Part shown: positions 7,480 through 49,248 of the stretch, piece after piece
How positions within the stretch are numbered: position 1 is the first letter of the stretch
Layout: every line of letters begins with the position of its first letter
From: Psychrobacter sp. NZS113
GTDB taxonomy: Bacteria > Pseudomonadota > Gammaproteobacteria > Pseudomonadales > Moraxellaceae
DNA length: 64,000 nt
NCBI RefSeq assembly: GCF_015864825.1
Contig: NZ_JADYWL010000007.1
Coordinates: 1 to 64,000, forward strand
Reading direction: 5' to 3'
Made by a program: the position numbers and the translations under genes
Notes under the pieces: model-generated
Database searches by the model: none
Told to the model about the DNA's origin: nothing
The model's input: only the letters and a program-made list of their open reading frames with translations

Positions 7480-7579
7480 GATGATCTCTTTATTGTCTTT
7501 ATTAAGGGTTAAACGTTTGGGCTATTTATACTAAATGTTACTAAACCAAAAAATACGATGAGCGGTGGCAAACTCGTTT

Positions 7580-7622
7580 AGTCTACTAAATACAGGACTT
7601 ACACTCATTTTCCTTGCTGCTC
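7580..7622 (-). repeat. Degenerate relative of the 108-bp dispersed repeat
   Basis: The segment reads AGTCTAC...AC-TT-CACTCA--TTCCTTG and aligns with the inner right half of copy C (49187-49233), with roughly two thirds of positions identical by eye. The terminal inverted repeats are not recognisable here, so this is a decayed fragment at best. It lies between divergent tyrS and anmK. Confidence 0.4.
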
Positions 7623-7710
7623 TGATTTTGGGAATGGTATTAAGGTCTCGTAGCCTGCAAAAGATGTTAGAATTTGACGGATATACTAGCGTTTTTTAAG
7701 GTAAATTGCC

Positions 7711-9131: not shown

Positions 9132-9338
9132 ATGTCTGTTGTTATTACCAGTCCAATAGAACATGGTTATATTGATATCAATGTACCCAGTATAAGTTAT
9201 ACATGAGTATATTTAGCGAGACGACAACATAATGTCTTTACCTTAGATAGTAACGGCCTTATCGTGGATAAACTACATAGTCAAAGTATAGGCAGTCATC
9301 AGCAATACCTTTATACTATTAAAGCAATAGATAGCTAA
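9132..9338 (+). pseudogene. Possible gene remnant with an in-frame TGA
   Basis: One reading frame starts at ATG 9132, is interrupted by TGA at 9204-9206 after 24 codons, and continues in the same frame for 43 codons to TAA at 9336. The two halves (start MSVVITSPIEHGYIDIN, end GSHQQYLYTIKAIDS) have protein-like composition. I do not recognise the family. It may be a decayed gene fragment or chance. There is no good ribosome-binding site before the ATG. Confidence 0.25.
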
Positions 9339-9554
9339 AGCAGCAGGTAGCCTTTGATACACTCGTTAGGCTTCGCAAGTACACTACACTTAAGTTTACA
9401 TATGTACACTTAAGTGTTTTATAATGGTTGTAAAAATGCATGTATGACGCTATAAATAGTATAACGCGACAGTAACAAACGATATGACGACAGCGCAATC
9501 AAATAATATCAGAAAAAACCATCCTTTTAGGAACGCAAGTACAGGACATATAGC
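9339..9554. other. Spacer upstream of the KAS II gene
   Basis: Between about 9356 and 9385 the spacer contains GATACA...CGTTAGGCTTCGCAAGT, which weakly resembles the left half of repeat copy C. After it come two ACACTTAAGT palindromes around 9394-9418. No gene is seen. The KAS II ribosome-binding site AGGA is at its right end. Confidence 0.3.
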
Positions 9555-14183: not shown

Positions 14184-14290
14184 TATAGTTAATCCAAAAT
14201 AATATCGATACAAGGAAACCGAGTGCAAGCTATACATTCGTATGGTTAGCGAGGTTGACACTGTAGCGGTTTTATAGTGGATTAACTATA
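14184..14290 (+). repeat. Dispersed 107-bp repeat, copy A
   Basis: The copy is bounded by a perfect 12-bp inverted repeat, TATAGTTAATCC at 14184-14195 and GGATTAACTATA at 14279-14290. Its interior reads GATACAAGG, then CGAGTGCAAG, a central imperfect hairpin, and GACACTGTAGC. Copies B (22821-22928) and the reverse complement of C (49141-49248) share this order. It has no coding capacity and is MITE-like. It ends two bases from the stop codon of the POT transporter gene. Confidence 0.8.
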
Positions 14291-14292
14291 CC

Positions 14293-15861
14293 TTATTGCT
14301 TGGCTAGCTGTTTCTCACGCTCACTATCTTTAAGCATTTTATTGATAGGTTTTGCTAATATCAGCAAGAATATCGCGGTAACCACCAAGAATATTGTCAT
14401 GGTTGTAAATAGACCTGGCAACCCTTCGATTTTGTCAGCTGATACATGACCACCAAAGAAAGCTGCAACCAAGTTACCCATTGCGATAGAAGCAAAGAAT
14501 AGCCCCATCATTTGACCCTGCATACCCTCTGGCGCCAGCTTAGTCATTGCAGACAAACCAACTGGGCTAAGTGCTAACTCACCCAACGTTAATAGCAACA
14601 GACTACCAACCAACCATAGTGGCGACGCTAAGCCAGCACCAGGCGCTAAGATGCTTTTTGAAGCAAAAATCATTAAGGCAAAACCTGCCGCTGCGAGTAG
14701 CATACCCAGTGCAAACTTAGCCATACTGCTAGGCTCAAGACCTCGGTTACCAAGCTTGACCCAGATGATACTGATGATGGGTGCCAATATTAAAATAAAT
14801 AAAGGATTCAACGACTGGAACCAAATGCTCGGTACATCAAACCCTAATACATTCAAATCGGTATAACGATCAGCAAACAAGTTAAAAGACGTTGGTTGCT
14901 GCTCAAAGCTCGACCAAAACAGCGTCGAACCAATAATTAAGATAAAGCAAATCAACAAACGCAGCTTGTCTGTCTTATCCAGCTTAGGTGAAATGAACAT
15001 AATAGCAAAGTACAGGATGACCACCCCAGCAATTATATAAGTCATATACTCTGCGACCATCTCAGGATTGAACGATATCATTCCTGTAGAAACCAATAGC
15101 ACTACGGCGACTAATAGCGCTAAAAAACCAGCGACCCAGCGACCGACATTTTTGTATTGATCATTGGATTTTTCCCACTCGGCAGTGATACCTTTAGCTC
15201 GTGCATAACGCGTCAAGTTCTTTTGCGCGACGAAACGATAGATGAGCAATGAGACCAGCATACCCAAGCCACCAACGCCGAAGCCGACATGCCACATACC
15301 TTTTTCTTTGAATACACCAACGATCAGCGCAGCCAATAACGCGCCGATGTTAATACCCATATAGAACAAGGTAAAACCGCCATCACGGCGAGAGTCACCT
15401 TTGGGGTATAAAGCCCCCACCATCACTGAGATACAGGTCTTAAATAATCCTGAGCCCAAGACGATACAGATTAAACCGACAAAGAACAGTGTCATGCCAA
15501 ACATAGAGGAGAGTGCAATACACAAATGACCAAGGGCAATAATAATACTGCCCCACCACAGTGCTCTCTCCTGACCTAGCCAGTTATCCGCTAGCCAGCC
15601 CCCAGGTACAGCAGCCAAGTACAACGAACCCGCGAAAATACCATAGATAGCAGAAGCGGTGACTTCATCAAAGCCAAAACCACCACTACCTACCGTCGCC
15701 ACCATAAATAAGACCAGTAGCGGGCGAATACTATAATAAGAAAACCGCTCCCACATCTCAGTGAAAAACAATGGACGTAGCGGCGTTGGATGCCCCATAA
15801 AGCCAGTATCTAGTGCGTCTAATTCAGCAGCATGAGCCCCCGATCGTGTTTCTGTGCCCAT
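14293..15861 (-). CDS. POT/PTR family proton-coupled peptide transporter
   Basis: An inner-membrane major-facilitator transporter that imports di- and tripeptides with protons. It has 522 residues and about 12-14 hydrophobic segments. The family motif ExxERFxYY is at residues 35-43 (EMWERFSYY), and LFYMGINIGALLA matches the PTR2 signature. GGWLADNWLG is the conserved loop after the second helix. It is closest in form to the DtpA/DtpT type. It is monocistronic on the minus strand, with repeat copy A directly behind its stop codon. Confidence 0.92.
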   Translation of the reverse strand: MGTETRSGAHAAELDALDTGFMGHPTPLRPLFFTEMWERFSYYSIRPLLVLFMVATVGSGGFGFDEVTASAIYGIFAGSLYLAAVPGGWLADNWLGQERALWWGSIIIALGHLCIALSSMFGMTLFFVGLICIVLGSGLFKTCISVMVGALYPKGDSRRDGGFTLFYMGINIGALLAALIVGVFKEKGMWHVGFGVGGLGMLVSLLIYRFVAQKNLTRYARAKGITAEWEKSNDQYKNVGRWVAGFLALLVAVVLLVSTGMISFNPEMVAEYMTYIIAGVVILYFAIMFISPKLDKTDKLRLLICFILIIGSTLFWSSFEQQPTSFNLFADRYTDLNVLGFDVPSIWFQSLNPLFILILAPIISIIWVKLGNRGLEPSSMAKFALGMLLAAAGFALMIFASKSILAPGAGLASPLWLVGSLLLLTLGELALSPVGLSAMTKLAPEGMQGQMMGLFFASIAMGNLVAAFFGGHVSADKIEGLPGLFTTMTIFLVVTAIFLLILAKPINKMLKDSEREKQLAKQ

Positions 15862-21949: not shown

Positions 21950-22687
21950 ATGTCAATTAAAACATTTGAATTAATCAGCACTACTGAAAATGGCATCGAA
22001 CTTATTAGCTATGTCGCATTGCCAGAAAACGCATCAGACGATAACCCAGTACCAGGTATTTTAGTGGCTCCAGAATGGTGGGGCGTGGTCGATCATCCGA
22101 AATCAGTAGTCGAGCGCTTGGCAGAAGCAGGTTATGCAGCAGTAGCGATGGATGTCTATGGTGAAGGTAAGCTGACCACCGATGCAGCGCAAGCCAACAT
22201 GTGGATGGAGCAAGTACTTGAAGATCAAGACATGCTTATGGCACGTTGCCGTTTGATACTCAATGACTTTAGTGATCAATTAGCTGTTGATGGTGACAAT
22301 TTAGCAGCGATTGGCTATTGCTTCGGCGGCAAAATCGTCCTAGATATGGCACGTGAAGGCATGCCATTAAAAGCGGTTGCTACGTTCCATGGTAATCCAT
22401 CACCAAAACAGCCAGCAGACAAAAACTTCACGGCCAAAGTATTGGTCGCCCATGGCCGTGATGACTCGATGGTCTCAATGGATGCCATCGAAGGTCTTAA
22501 ATCAGAGCTAGATGCCGCCGATGTGGACTACACTATCGATGTCTATGACAATGCCAAGCATGGGTTTACCAACCCGCATGCCGATGAGCGTGCTGCCAAA
22601 AATGAAGTCGATCTTGGCTACAACGAAGCCGCTGCCAAACAAAGCTGGGAAAACATGCTTGAGTTTATGAAAGCCAACTTGGCATAA
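21950..22687 (+). CDS. Dienelactone hydrolase family protein
   Basis: A 245-residue alpha/beta hydrolase of the dienelactone hydrolase family. The triad is visible: Cys124 in GYCFGGK, Asp171 or Asp172 in AHGRDDSMV, and His204 in NAKHGFTNP. The family hydrolyses carboxymethylenebutenolide-like lactones, but stand-alone copies outside a catechol pathway usually have unknown substrates, and no such pathway is seen here. The ATG follows AAAAGGAC. A terminator follows at 22757. Confidence 0.88.
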   Translation: MSIKTFELISTTENGIELISYVALPENASDDNPVPGILVAPEWWGVVDHPKSVVERLAEAGYAAVAMDVYGEGKLTTDAAQANMWMEQVLEDQDMLMARCRLILNDFSDQLAVDGDNLAAIGYCFGGKIVLDMAREGMPLKAVATFHGNPSPKQPADKNFTAKVLVAHGRDDSMVSMDAIEGLKSELDAADVDYTIDVYDNAKHGFTNPHADERAAKNEVDLGYNEAAAKQSWENMLEFMKANLA

Positions 22688-22756: not shown

Positions 22757-22791
22757 AAGGGCCGCTTAGTATTTAAGCGGCCCTTCTTTTT
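22757..22791 (+). terminator. Intrinsic terminator after the dienelactone hydrolase gene
   Basis: AAGGGCCGCTTA (22757-22768) pairs perfectly with TAAGCGGCCCTT (22774-22785), followed by CTTTTTG. Confidence 0.9.
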
Positions 22792-22820: not shown

Positions 22821-22928
22821 TATAGTCAAAGAAGTCTAAAACAGATACAAGGCAGCCGACTGCAAATTGTACAAGCAGTACATTTAAGGAGGGTAACACA
22901 GTAGCAGTTTAGTAGTTCTCTGACTATA
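22821..22928 (+). repeat. Dispersed 108-bp repeat, copy B
   Basis: Ends TATAGTCAAAGAA (22821-22833) and TTCTCTGACTATA (22916-22928) are inverted repeats of 13 bp with one mismatch. The interior has the family order GATACAAGG, CCGACTGCAA, a central hairpin with GTAC arms around 22869-22882, then AACACAGTAGC. It sits between a terminator and the DUF2339 gene and may carry part of that gene's promoter region. Confidence 0.8.
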
Positions 22929-22999
22929 AGTCGCAAGGACAGTATTGTACTTCTTAGCAAATAACGTCATTATCACTGCATTATAAGTTGTATTGAGTG

Positions 23000-25900
23000 A
23001 TGAAGATGTTTTATCTATTGATAAACCAACTGGGTTGGTTGGCTTTTACCGCACTATTAATTGTGGTGGTCGTACTCTACGTCAGAATTAATCGGCAGAT
23101 TGGGCAGCTACGCCGTGATGTAAACAAACTACAAACCGAGCTTGTGCAGCAAAAAGTCAATCACGCCACTCCCTCAGGTATTCAATCAATCGAAAGCAAT
23201 GCTGCTAGCAATAGTGATGCTACGAAAGAGAACCTAAATGAAAGTTCAACTCTCAACACAATAGATGAAACAAATACAATAGCACAGACATGGCCACCAT
23301 TACCGCCAACAACTGCTACAGTCTCAAATCTACAAGCAAACCCTTTATCAAATCCGTTATCAAAAAAGGCATCGAACAGCTCTGACAATGAGCCTACCGA
23401 AACATTAGGCTTGATAAAAAACAAAACGCTAACCACCGCGATTCAACCAGACGAAAGCTCTTTACCTATCGTCACCTCACTGTTCCATTCTATTAAAAAC
23501 TGGTTTTTCGGTGGCAATTTAGTGGTGCGTGTCGGCGTATTGGTGCTACTCGTTGGCGTGGTATTACTGCTGCGCTTACTCAGTGATTATATTGAAATTC
23601 CGATTGCCTTCAAACTCATGGCCATTGGTGGCGCAGGTTTAGGATTAGCAGCACTGGGGCTAAAGCTAACCGCAAAACGGTTCTCTTATGGCATTACGTT
23701 ACAAGGCGCAGGTCTAGCTATTGCGTACTTGAGCACCTTTTTTGCTTATAGTGTCTATCAAATTATTCCAAGTTTACCGAGCTTTATTGGGCTTGGCATA
23801 TTATCTGCCGTCACTGTTGCCCTCGCCGTCCGTCAGAACGCCTTCCCATTGGCGTTGCTAGCATTGTCTGGTGGTTTTTTCGCACCGATTTTGACCAGTG
23901 AAGATACAGGCAGTCTAGTTGCCTTGTTCAGCTATTATCTACTGCTAAATGTGGCCATTGCCATCATTGGTCATTACCGCCCGTGGAAAATTTTGAATTT
24001 ATTCGGTGTGACTGTGACATTTGGCCTCGCCTATTATTGGGGAATCAGCGGAAATCTAGACGCTGTCATTGATTCACAGCGTTGGTCATTGGCTTTGTTG
24101 GTTGCCTTACATTTGAGTCTTTACCTGTTTGTCGTGATTCGCTACGCACAGCAAATCATCGCTTACAACACCGATAACGAGCAGGCAATTAATCAGGCCA
24201 ATCGTACCAGCTCTGACGACACCGAAAAACCAGATACTGACCAGCATGCCTACCTGTTTCCTATCGACACGGGATTATTATTTTCAGTGCCACTGATGGC
24301 ATTCGGTTTATTTGCTGCGATATTAGATGGTATTCCTCATGCCTTGACCATCGTCAGTGCGATTTTAGGGACAATTTATCTTAGCTTAGGCTGGCTATTC
24401 GTCCAACGCAGTCAGCGTTATGCGTTGATTACCGAAGGCATGTTGGCACTCGGGTTCGGCTTTTTAGCTTTGGTCATTCCGCTCGCGTTAGATGCTGAAT
24501 GGATTGCGTTTGGGTGGTCAGTCCAAGGACTGGCTCTCGTGTGGTTTGGTAGGCGCTCCTTACGTGCATGGTCAGTATTACTTGGTCTGTTATTACAGCT
24601 CGTCAGTATCGGTATGTTAGTGCTTACTCTTATATTCTCTGGCAAAGACTATCCTATTTTAGCCTTAAGTATTTCAGCCATTGCTTATCTAACTTCTGTC
24701 TTTATTTTACGTAGTAGCCACTCGCCCGCACTATTAAATGATAGCTTGCGCGACGATTTATCCGATTCAACCGATTCAACAATACTTAAAACGTCCACCA
24801 CGACCTCAGACCCGATAGACACTTATGCCAATGCATTGGGTATCAGTACTGATGCCGCGCGCCAATGGCTGACATCTATCAATAGTCGAAGCACAGCGTT
24901 CAATATCGTGTGGCGCAGTCCTAGATTCATACAGTTTTTGACGATGACTGCAATGGCATGGGTACTGCATGTGCTGCTGCTTGATTTTCATCAATGGTTT
25001 ACCCATTGGCAGCTAGCCACATCAACCATGATTGCACTCACAGCACTGATTACCCTTAGCATTTACTGGGTCATTAATCGTTACCATGCATGGACGGAAA
25101 TCAGACAGCTTAGCCATGGCTTGTTATCCCTGTTTTATCTGATGCTGATACTACAGCTACCACAAAAATTTGAGCAGCACTTAGACTGGATGACCGCAGA
25201 CTGGTTGCTATTTACAGGTTTACTCATTGGTTGGTTGGTTGTTGGACAGTTGTGGCTGAAAACATGGCATAGCGATGAGCGTTCATCACATTATGATAAT
25301 ACAAGCTGGCTAAGTGCTGGTATTTTGGTTGTCGCAGCAGCGGCACACTATGGTCTACCTGCCTCTGCTGGCGTGATGGCTGTCTTGATTCCAGCCCTAT
25401 TCATGATCCTTGGATTATGGGGTGGTTATCGCTATCGCCGTGATGATCAAACAGACAAACAGGCAATTGAACTGATAACTGAAACTACCACACAGGGGTT
25501 GCTGTACTGGTTTGATTGGCAACGGGCACTGCTAAATAGTGCAGCCATCTTTGCGCCAATTGCCCTATGTTGGGTCATCATTACCAACTGGTCTTATGAT
25601 GGCGTGATTTGGGGTATGCCCTATTTTCCATTGTTGAATCTATATGACGTTACCTCAGGGTTAGCGCTACTCGTTGGTTTTAGCGTTTATTACCTGAATC
25701 AGCAATATAATAACGAGCAGTCAAACCAAAAAAACACGCTCATCCAAAAGAATATTCAGAAAATTTTCACTACTAATAATTTGCTGATTGTTTTAGGTCT
25801 TGTTAGTTTTTGGCTGATATCCAGCATCCTTATCAGGACACTTCATGCCTTTATTGGTACTCCACTATGGAATGACTATCAAGGCGGCGCGTGGCAAAGC

Positions 25901-26170
25901 GAGCAAGTTCAGACTGGACTGACCATGTTGTGGACGCTTTTGGCATTAATCGCCACTATTATGGCCAGTCGCTACTGGCAGCGTGCGCTTTGGTTTATGG
26001 GTATCGGGCTATTGGGTGTGGTTGTACTCAAACTGGTCTTGGTCGACCTGTCACAGACCGAAGCAATTTGGCGGGTCATATCCTTCCTTGGCGCAGGTAG
26101 TTTGATTCTGCTCATTGGTTATTTGGCACCGTTACCGCCGGCGCACGATGAGATCACGGATAAGACGTAA
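23000..26170 (+). CDS. Large DUF2339 polytopic membrane protein
   Basis: A 1056-residue membrane protein. An N-terminal helix (FTALLIVVVVLYV) is followed by a short coiled coil (RQIGQLRRDVNKLQTEL), a disordered Ser/Thr/Asn-rich linker (about 55-155) and then more than 20 predicted transmembrane segments from about residue 170 to the end. This is the DUF2339 architecture, whose function is unknown to me. The frame opens with GTG at 22997 and ATG at 23000, and a further ATG lies at 23006. No strong ribosome-binding site distinguishes them. It is monocistronic, after repeat copy B. Confidence 0.85.
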   Translation: MKMFYLLINQLGWLAFTALLIVVVVLYVRINRQIGQLRRDVNKLQTELVQQKVNHATPSGIQSIESNAASNSDATKENLNESSTLNTIDETNTIAQTWPPLPPTTATVSNLQANPLSNPLSKKASNSSDNEPTETLGLIKNKTLTTAIQPDESSLPIVTSLFHSIKNWFFGGNLVVRVGVLVLLVGVVLLLRLLSDYIEIPIAFKLMAIGGAGLGLAALGLKLTAKRFSYGITLQGAGLAIAYLSTFFAYSVYQIIPSLPSFIGLGILSAVTVALAVRQNAFPLALLALSGGFFAPILTSEDTGSLVALFSYYLLLNVAIAIIGHYRPWKILNLFGVTVTFGLAYYWGISGNLDAVIDSQRWSLALLVALHLSLYLFVVIRYAQQIIAYNTDNEQAINQANRTSSDDTEKPDTDQHAYLFPIDTGLLFSVPLMAFGLFAAILDGIPHALTIVSAILGTIYLSLGWLFVQRSQRYALITEGMLALGFGFLALVIPLALDAEWIAFGWSVQGLALVWFGRRSLRAWSVLLGLLLQLVSIGMLVLTLIFSGKDYPILALSISAIAYLTSVFILRSSHSPALLNDSLRDDLSDSTDSTILKTSTTTSDPIDTYANALGISTDAARQWLTSINSRSTAFNIVWRSPRFIQFLTMTAMAWVLHVLLLDFHQWFTHWQLATSTMIALTALITLSIYWVINRYHAWTEIRQLSHGLLSLFYLMLILQLPQKFEQHLDWMTADWLLFTGLLIGWLVVGQLWLKTWHSDERSSHYDNTSWLSAGILVVAAAAHYGLPASAGVMAVLIPALFMILGLWGGYRYRRDDQTDKQAIELITETTTQGLLYWFDWQRALLNSAAIFAPIALCWVIITNWSYDGVIWGMPYFPLLNLYDVTSGLALLVGFSVYYLNQQYNNEQSNQKNTLIQKNIQKIFTTNNLLIVLGLVSFWLISSILIRTLHAFIGTPLWNDYQGGAWQSEQVQTGLTMLWTLLALIATIMASRYWQRALWFMGIGLLGVVVLKLVLVDLSQTEAIWRVISFLGAGSLILLIGYLAPLPPAHDEITDKT

Positions 26171-44038: not shown

Positions 44039-44096
44039 CTTAGCTAGACACAAAAAAGCCTGCAATTGATTGCAGGCTTTTTTGTGTCTAGCTAAG
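44039..44096. terminator. Terminator with a 27-bp perfect stem
   Basis: Arms 44039-44065 and 44070-44096 are perfectly complementary over 27 bp with a TTGA loop. The core is GCCTGCAA, with A6 and T6 tracts inside the arms and CTTAGCTAGACAC/GTGTCTAGCTAAG as an outer extension. It serves the converging lipoprotein and metallopeptidase genes in both directions. Confidence 0.9.
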
Positions 44097-49140: not shown

Positions 49141-49248
49141 TATAGTCAATCCTATATAAACTAGATACAGCGTCAGGCTCGCTCAGTCTACAATTTGTAG
49201 CACTTTCACTCACCTTCCTTGTATCTAAATTATCTTGAACTGACTATA
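49141..49248 (-). repeat. Dispersed 108-bp repeat, copy C, inside pheS-pheT
   Basis: The ends TATAGTCA (49141-49148) and TGACTATA (49241-49248) are inverted. Its reverse complement has GATACAAGGAAGGTGAGTG, a hairpin with CTACAA/TTGTAG arms (49188-49203), then GAGCGAGCCTGACGCTGTA, in the same order as copy A. It fills most of the gap between pheS and pheT and so must be transcribed with them, where it could fold or alter coupling. Confidence 0.8.

Follow-up and report, generated by a model that had tools for sequence, protein, structure and literature searches.

The window, i.e. the 64,000-nt stretch of Psychrobacter sp. NZS113 DNA analysed here, carries a short repeat at positions 14184 to 14290, raising the question of what kind of element this is, what moves it and whether it is confined to the Moraxellaceae. 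The copies of the element, which as argued below is a non-autonomous mini-transposon (MITE), the parts of copy A and the decayed relatives in the window are as follows, R1 being a covariance model trained on 23 copies from the genome of the window:

14184..14290, plus strand: MITE copy A, complete (BLAST, covariance model R1, fold)
14184..14214, plus strand: left terminal inverted repeat of copy A, resembling IS630-type ends (end comparison)
14260..14290, minus strand: right terminal inverted repeat of copy A (end comparison)
14207..14267, plus strand: Correia-like core in copy A, some 60 nt long; it includes a central hairpin and two tandem G.A/A.G mismatches
22821..22928, plus strand: MITE copy B, complete, divergent (alignment, R1)
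49141..49248, minus strand: MITE copy C, complete (alignment, R1)
7539..7639, minus strand: decayed relative, core kept and ends lost (R1, 33.5 bits, E = 1.8e-5)
9167..9240, plus strand: weak decayed core fragment (R1, 23.9 bits, E = 0.005)

Copies A, B and C can be aligned end to end with a mean column identity of 81% and share the ends TATAGTYA/TRACTATA, confirming the dispersed, non-coding repeat with inverted ends that the first-pass annotation had described from these three copies. The element is 107-108 bp long, is bounded by TATAGT..ACTATA and contains no coding sequence. Two decayed relatives had been proposed as well: the one at 7580-7622 lies within the real remnant at 7539-7639 on the minus strand; the one at 9356-9385 finds no support, a weak remnant being present nearby at 9167-9240 on the plus strand. 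Rfam models yield no match in the window at their gathering scores. Copy A lies 2 bp from the stop end of a transporter-like minus-strand gene (14293-15861) and is antisense to both flanking genes; copy B, preceded by a terminator-like hairpin (22757-22785), is placed between the plus-strand ORFs 21950-22687 and 22997-26170; and copy C sits between pheS and pheT in the sense orientation relative to both, the gene names being read from the translations. Promoter-like sites number 24 in the stretch scanned, compared with 19.3 expected, an uninformative difference. A near-perfect palindrome at 44039-44096 of the window, with arms of 28 bases (CTTAGCTAGACACAAAAAAGCCTGC..), gives a weak R1 match and by its sequence is no copy of the MITE.

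The genome of the window (G000; 3.37 Mb, 56 contigs) is rich in further copies, as the first-pass annotation had expected. BLAST with copy A identifies at least 41 distinct loci at E ≤ 1e-7 with 40 of 97 candidates scored; its 44 rows comprise these 41 loci, two rows of copy A matching its own reverse strand and a short match, in reverse, to another copy's end, and copy B is missing from them, being too diverged. R1 yields at least 150 matches, copy B included, when 150 of the 1882 first-look candidates are scored; all but three have E < 1e-5, and the 23 training copies match by construction. Besides several divergent copies, at least two subfamilies stand out clearly, S1 (CGATACAAGGAAACCGAGTGCAAG) and S2 (GGATACAAGGAAGGCGAGTGAAAG). 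Across the family, matches at 1e-5 are found in at least 37 of 119 genomes and at least 4 of 16 genera, with 32 candidates scored per genome. None of the 48 classified sites in G000 (36 including the three of the window, and 12 more) lies in a convincing gene, the 102-codon ORF beneath one of them being taken to be spurious, and no copy lies within a convincing ORF in the genomes G023 (27 sites) and G066 (10 sites); by crude ORF calls, 2 of 29 gonococcal sites and 14 of 65 sites of the core pattern described below fall within ORFs. A search of the plasmid collection with L063 gives no match.

Movement has left direct traces. In one locus (L003) an S1 copy is nested within an S2 copy, converting TCAAGA-TA-ATTTAG into TCAAGA-[TATAGT...ACTATA]-ATTTAG, i.e. 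an insertion of 105 bp plus a duplicated TA, the intact S2 sequence being seen in copy C. The TA target duplication supposed in the first-pass annotation is documented by this single nested case, the pheS-pheT spacers having diverged too far for an empty-site comparison at base precision. Using the pheS-copy C-pheT sequence as query, 12 of 60 genomes of the genus, G000 included, show an unbroken match (E = 7e-230 or better, vs 5e-95 for the best match in the remaining 48), and the element is absent from the spacer in all 18 genomes inspected among these 48. The sister genome G023 contains 28 copies, 21 of them identical; a BLAST search of it with the 107-mer does not find a longer element sharing these ends. 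Because of the inverted ends, the nested TA duplication, the element-free sites, the burst in G023 and the matching ends of IS630 elements in relatives, the element is a MITE, the first of the two identities considered in the first-pass annotation.

A transposase with matching ends, envisaged at the same time, is found in relatives within the genus and not in G000: PF13358, the DDE domain of IS630 (DDE_3), has no match in G000, so that a search by this domain finds no partner inside the window's own genome. Among 28 genomes searched, G000 being one of them, the domain is present in 21, in 20 of these above the cut-off, and two genomes (G085 and G028) carry MITE copies with no DDE_3 match. Paired TATAGT ends lie 909-982 bp apart in 6 of 30 loci scanned, and further IS630-family elements of 909-918 bp, at least those listed, put the size of the family at about 910 bp. 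Boundaries were fixed by near-identical copies with different flanks (e.g. L214-L217 and L210-L213), and the proteins of two of the IS elements match HTH_Tnp_IS630 and DDE_3, with a layout of a short HTH ORF and a DDE ORF. The consensus of the IS630 ends, TATAGTCAATTCAATATAAAAGAGATACAATCTA, derived from 20 ends after dropping two of 22 with mis-set boundaries, agrees over about 31 bp with the left (TATAGTCGATTCAATATAATTTCGATACAAGGAA) and right (TATAGTCAATCCAATATAAATTCGCTACAGCGTC) ends of the MITE. Against 267 genomic TATAGT controls the Mann-Whitney p-values are 3e-21 and 8e-20, values that are too small throughout, since copies of common ancestry do not count as independent. The 95th percentile of these controls is surpassed by 35 of the 46 left ends and 36 of the 46 right ends of the MITE, and the best controls resemble IS remnants themselves.

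We also compared MITE and IS630 ends originating from the same genome, using six genomes and one IS per genome. The null is exceeded in three, i.e. Cardiobacterium (score of 12.0 vs a null 99th percentile of 6.0), Conchiformibius (9.5 vs 5.8) and, as a weaker match, N. gonorrhoeae (5.8 vs 4.5). Scores stay below it in Neisseria sp. S28M (1.0 vs 4.8), G033 (-1.5 vs 5.5) and G077 (4.8 vs 6.0), the MITE of the latter (L051) scoring 11.8 with the IS630 element of G118 from the same genus. The N. gonorrhoeae record NZ_CP119140.1 holds six near-identical IS630-type elements of about 1057 bp (L412-L417) with the ends TATAGTCAATTAAAA..GGACA on one side and TATATTCAATTAAAA..GTACA on the other; an article on gonococcal mobile elements (PMC9778887) never uses the term IS630 in its main text.

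We conclude that the element is probably moved by IS630-type transposases borrowed in trans, partner and MITE being joined across species only as G000 has copies without IS630; since G000 has no IS630 match, its copies look stranded. According to this model, an IS630 transposase would bind the MITE ends of about 31 bp in trans and move the element by cut and paste into TA sites, and movement in G000 would have ended, no IS630 element being left there.

The hairpin of copy A reaches -40.4 kcal/mol compared with -18.0 ± 2.8 kcal/mol for shuffled sequences (z = -8.1), and the GATACAAGG strand usually folds better than the other strand, forming one long hairpin spanning the element (-40.4 vs -27.4 kcal/mol for copy A, -27.5 vs -26.6 for copy B and -42.7 vs -24.0 for copy C). 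In alignment A4, comprising 32 diverse Moraxellaceae elements, 26 of 33 pairs show double-sided changes preserving the pairing, and paired cells amount to 90.3%, compared with 75.0% upon shuffling and 28-41% upon sliding, with none of 500 shuffles reaching the observed values. The core is marked by two tandem mismatches, one in columns 38.70 and 39.69 (G.A in 29 and A.G in 28 of 32 elements) and one in columns 32.76 and 33.75 (G.A in 21 and A.G in 22 of 32). Columns 33 and 75 can be described as a non-standard covarying pair, with A.G in 22 of the 32 elements and C.A in 8.

Mismatches within the arms are mostly of the kinds tolerated on the GATACAAGG strand. In 46 Moraxellaceae elements G.T occurs 121 times vs 45 for A.C and G.A 75 times vs 25 for C.T, and 41 of the 46 fold better on this strand. 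A set selected by the core word alone (79 elements examined, two without arms being dropped) has G.T 74 vs A.C 41 and G.A 76 vs C.T 9, with a modest folding advantage of the same strand in 48 of 77 elements, and 24 of 29 gonococcal matches likewise fold better on it. Exceptions are one gonococcal copy folding nearly equally on both strands (-43.9 vs -43.1 kcal/mol) and a Cupriavidus element favouring the opposite strand (-48.8 vs -52.0). The direction of the bias is the same in all three sets, which suggests selection on one single strand, and compensatory pairing together with one favoured strand points to RNA or single-stranded DNA.

A core acting as a double-stranded DNA signal, i.e. a transposition enhancer or a site for a host protein, with the hairpin being a by-product of the inverted repeat, would be in line with the binding of IHF reported for long Correia elements (PMC2229807), with the pairing that inverted ends would yield by themselves and with a folding advantage that is modest in the core-selected set and missing in some elements. 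However, neither the excess of G.T over A.C and of G.A over C.T in both sets nor the folding advantage in nearly all Moraxellaceae elements would be expected from such a signal, and we regard this reading as unlikely, albeit one to be taken seriously.

The strand-specific fold and arms free to vary as long as pairing holds would also suit an element whose mobile or recognised form is a single-stranded DNA hairpin, as known from IS200/IS605 or integron cassettes, and the orientation of the copies bears on this. Among 18 sites between co-directional genes in G023 (L136-L162 and L100; 27 of 28 copies classified, L158 being left out), 16 are antisense and 2 sense, as such a hairpin might produce; 15 of 20 sites in this genome agree with the replication strand as judged by GC skew and 12 of 13 with local transcription. 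No bias is present in G000 (12 antisense and 14 sense; 48 sites), G066 (2:3; 10 of 16 loci classified), N. gonorrhoeae (7:6; 29 of 56 matches) and the core loci (16:13; 65 sites), so that a general orientation rule, strong in G023 and absent in the other four sets, was rejected. The lack of bias in these four sets, and the TA duplication and end-matching elements of DDE_3 or IS5 type pointing to double-strand transposases, render movement as single-stranded DNA improbable.

In Neisseria, transcripts of NEMIS, as Correia elements are also named, are reported to be processed by RNase III (PMC2229807, PMC10969869). Because of the strand bias and these reports we favour a structured RNA: the core would most likely act as such, less likely as a single-stranded DNA signal, and might help the element to spread or to be tolerated, e.g. 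as a processed hairpin in transcripts. We put this function of the core at about even odds.

An RNA could in principle be kept for the benefit of the host, as a regulatory RNA or attenuator rather than a selfish element, for which one could adduce that 12 genomes have a stable hairpin between pheS and pheT and that NEMIS hairpins are reported as targets of RNase III (PMC2229807). Among orthologs of the copy C site, pairwise comparison reveals 171 pair changes that keep and 151 that break the pairing, and the TACA motif common with IS630 ends is lost in 9 of 12. As changes at this site keep and break pairs about equally and TACA is lost, the fold seems to be preserved in lineages that spread and not at a fixed position. 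Orthologs lacking TACA, decayed copies, element-free sites, at least 150 sites in one genome and the burst of identical copies make a role kept for the host hardly credible.

The core connects the element to the Correia elements. Model R2 was trained on A4 alone, all Moraxellaceae. Among sequences not used in training, it detects one gonococcal Correia element with 56 bits (E = 1.4e-10, filters off) and a Cupriavidus metallidurans locus with 41 bits. Over the whole N. gonorrhoeae record it yields 56 matches from 58 candidates, and of 29 examined, 28 have TATAG..CTATA ends, 25 the start TATAGTGGATT and 23 CAGACAGTAC. A tabulation gives 126 Correia elements per genome for the gonococcus and 250 for the meningococcus (PMC9778887), so R2 recovers under half of the gonococcal ones. 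When ten candidates were scored in each of 369 genomes of the class, at least one core was found in each of four genomes besides the window's own, one of these four showing three cores once more candidates were scored.

Pairwise, 13 of 37 cores (10 of 32 from Moraxellaceae and 3 of 5 others), among them L112 (39 of 44 positions) and L075, are more similar to the Correia core than all 500 mononucleotide shuffles, and their reverse complements do not stand out. Copy A shows no pairwise similarity to it (p = 0.61), copies B and C giving p = 0.006 and 0.054 in the shuffle test; the Correia link of the window's copies hence rests on the model and on intermediates. That 24 cores, including those of copies A and C, fail to beat all shuffles is what would be expected if hairpin MITEs with TATAG ends had converged on a Correia-like appearance instead of sharing descent. 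The 13 cores that do beat them, the close match of L112 and the finding of the core with unrelated ends make convergence very improbable. We class the element as a new member of a Correia-like group. The specificity for Moraxellaceae considered at first can apply to the sequence variant alone, the folded core being common to Correia elements and betaproteobacterial MITEs.

In the open-licence papers searched, no earlier report of Correia-like elements outside Neisseria was found, and the matches listed for the core words were all unrelated by title. A Correia 105-mer has no match among phages and matches four records in the plasmid collection, two from Neisseria and two from Cupriavidus; three records filed there, NZ_CP119140.1, NZ_CP119142.1 and NZ_CP141089.1, are of chromosome size (2.2 and 4.9 Mb). 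At gathering score, Rfam returns for L226, L227 and five core loci just one tmRNA located elsewhere, and a loose E-value search returns a microRNA-model match over the L111 element, below threshold with 25.6 bits vs a cut-off of 88.

The same core is found under different ends. The pattern CGCAGACAGTACNNBNAGTACGGCAAG matches at least 109 stretches, the matches listed including Neisseriales, Burkholderiales, Methylophilales, Rhodocyclales, Cardiobacterium, Stutzerimonas and others, the orders being assigned by organism name. By strict words, 81 matches examined divide into 13 with TATAG at both ends, 9 with GAG..CAAAA-type ends on both sides, 19 with one such end and 40 with neither; in 5 of the 9 GAG..CAAAA-ended MITEs the flanking TNA triplets are equal. 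Neisseriaceae bacterium JH1-16 harbours an 864-bp element with a PF13340 match (93 bits) and GAGCCGCTAACAAAACC at both ends, which we take to be of IS5/IS427 type. Among the four core-bearing MITEs listed for this genome, the ends are identical to these in L269, nearly so in L277 and different in L305 and L327. Of six genomes searched with PF13340, this is the one that gave an IS5-type partner with matching ends, and no partner element lies beside core-pattern loci within 8-kb stretches. One apparent partner pair was rejected as being two MITEs: core MITEs at L309:2900 and L309:4064 have the same orientation, and because they sit 1.2 kb apart their outer ends look like those of a transposon.

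As the Correia core lies in MITEs with other ends, which in one genome match a resident IS5-type element, it seems, judged by sequence, to be portable between transposase families, and a core of about 60 nt is common to Correia elements and other beta- and gammaproteobacterial MITEs with different ends; as far as the searched literature shows, a portable core with changing ends has not been described before. Altogether, an IS630-mobilised MITE with a Correia-like core, most likely a structured RNA, is the best explanation as a whole, with a probability of about 0.88. A wider model is tentative and somewhat more likely to fail than to hold: a portable strand-specific structured core, probably RNA, would have been taken up by IS630- and IS5-type MITEs and be itself the unit of selection, and the gonococcal IS630-type elements would be the partner of the Correia elements.

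A review of 2007 notes, in its account of such bacterial repeats, that the matching IS had not been found or sought, RUP being the exception (PMC2229807). IS630 elements with matching ends are now at hand in the window's genus, Cardiobacterium and Conchiformibius, with a moderate match in N. gonorrhoeae, making the mover of these repeats directly testable. The recurrence of one core beneath different ends suggests a structured function on which selection can act and which is unnamed in the literature searched. If the wider model is true, the core would be a parasite of transposons, switching transposase, and with the gonococcal IS630-type elements the Correia elements would have the partner they have long been missing.

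Known systems resemble the element to different degrees. ERIC has TATAC..GTATA ends, a length of 127 bp and a full-length hairpin, and the words CGAGTG/GAGCGA can be seen in it by eye; it is alike in form, without demonstrated homology, and membership was rejected as the ERIC sites L228 and L229 give no R2 match with filters off. Both sites (L228:1501-1627 and L229:1501-1627) fold better on one strand, with -52.9 vs -43.2 and -55.4 vs -38.6 kcal/mol. MITEAba12 from Acinetobacter, also Moraxellaceae, is a MITE of 113 bp and differs by its ends GGCTTTGTTGCACAAA, a 9-bp duplication and ISAba12 as proposed partner (PMC6382973). RUP of Streptococcus pneumoniae, a 107-bp MITE at TA whose ends match IS630-Spn1 (PMC2229807, PMC3049150), is comparable by description and belongs to another host phylum. 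The short Correia type of about 105-107 bp (CREE/NEMIS) shares the length, the TATAG ends, the full hairpin and the core order ACAAGG..GUAC-loop-GUAC..GCGAG..AACGC..GUA, matched by the Moraxellaceae-only model, and TA termini with target duplication are reported for it (PMC2229807). In contrast, its ends diverge from those of the window's element beyond TATAGT and the central stem differs, e.g. GUAU or GUAG replacing GUAC. The end consensus of the element reads TATAGTCRATYCAA.. and not TATAGTGGATTAA.. as in the 26-bp Correia repeat, which makes the element Correia-like rather than Correia proper.
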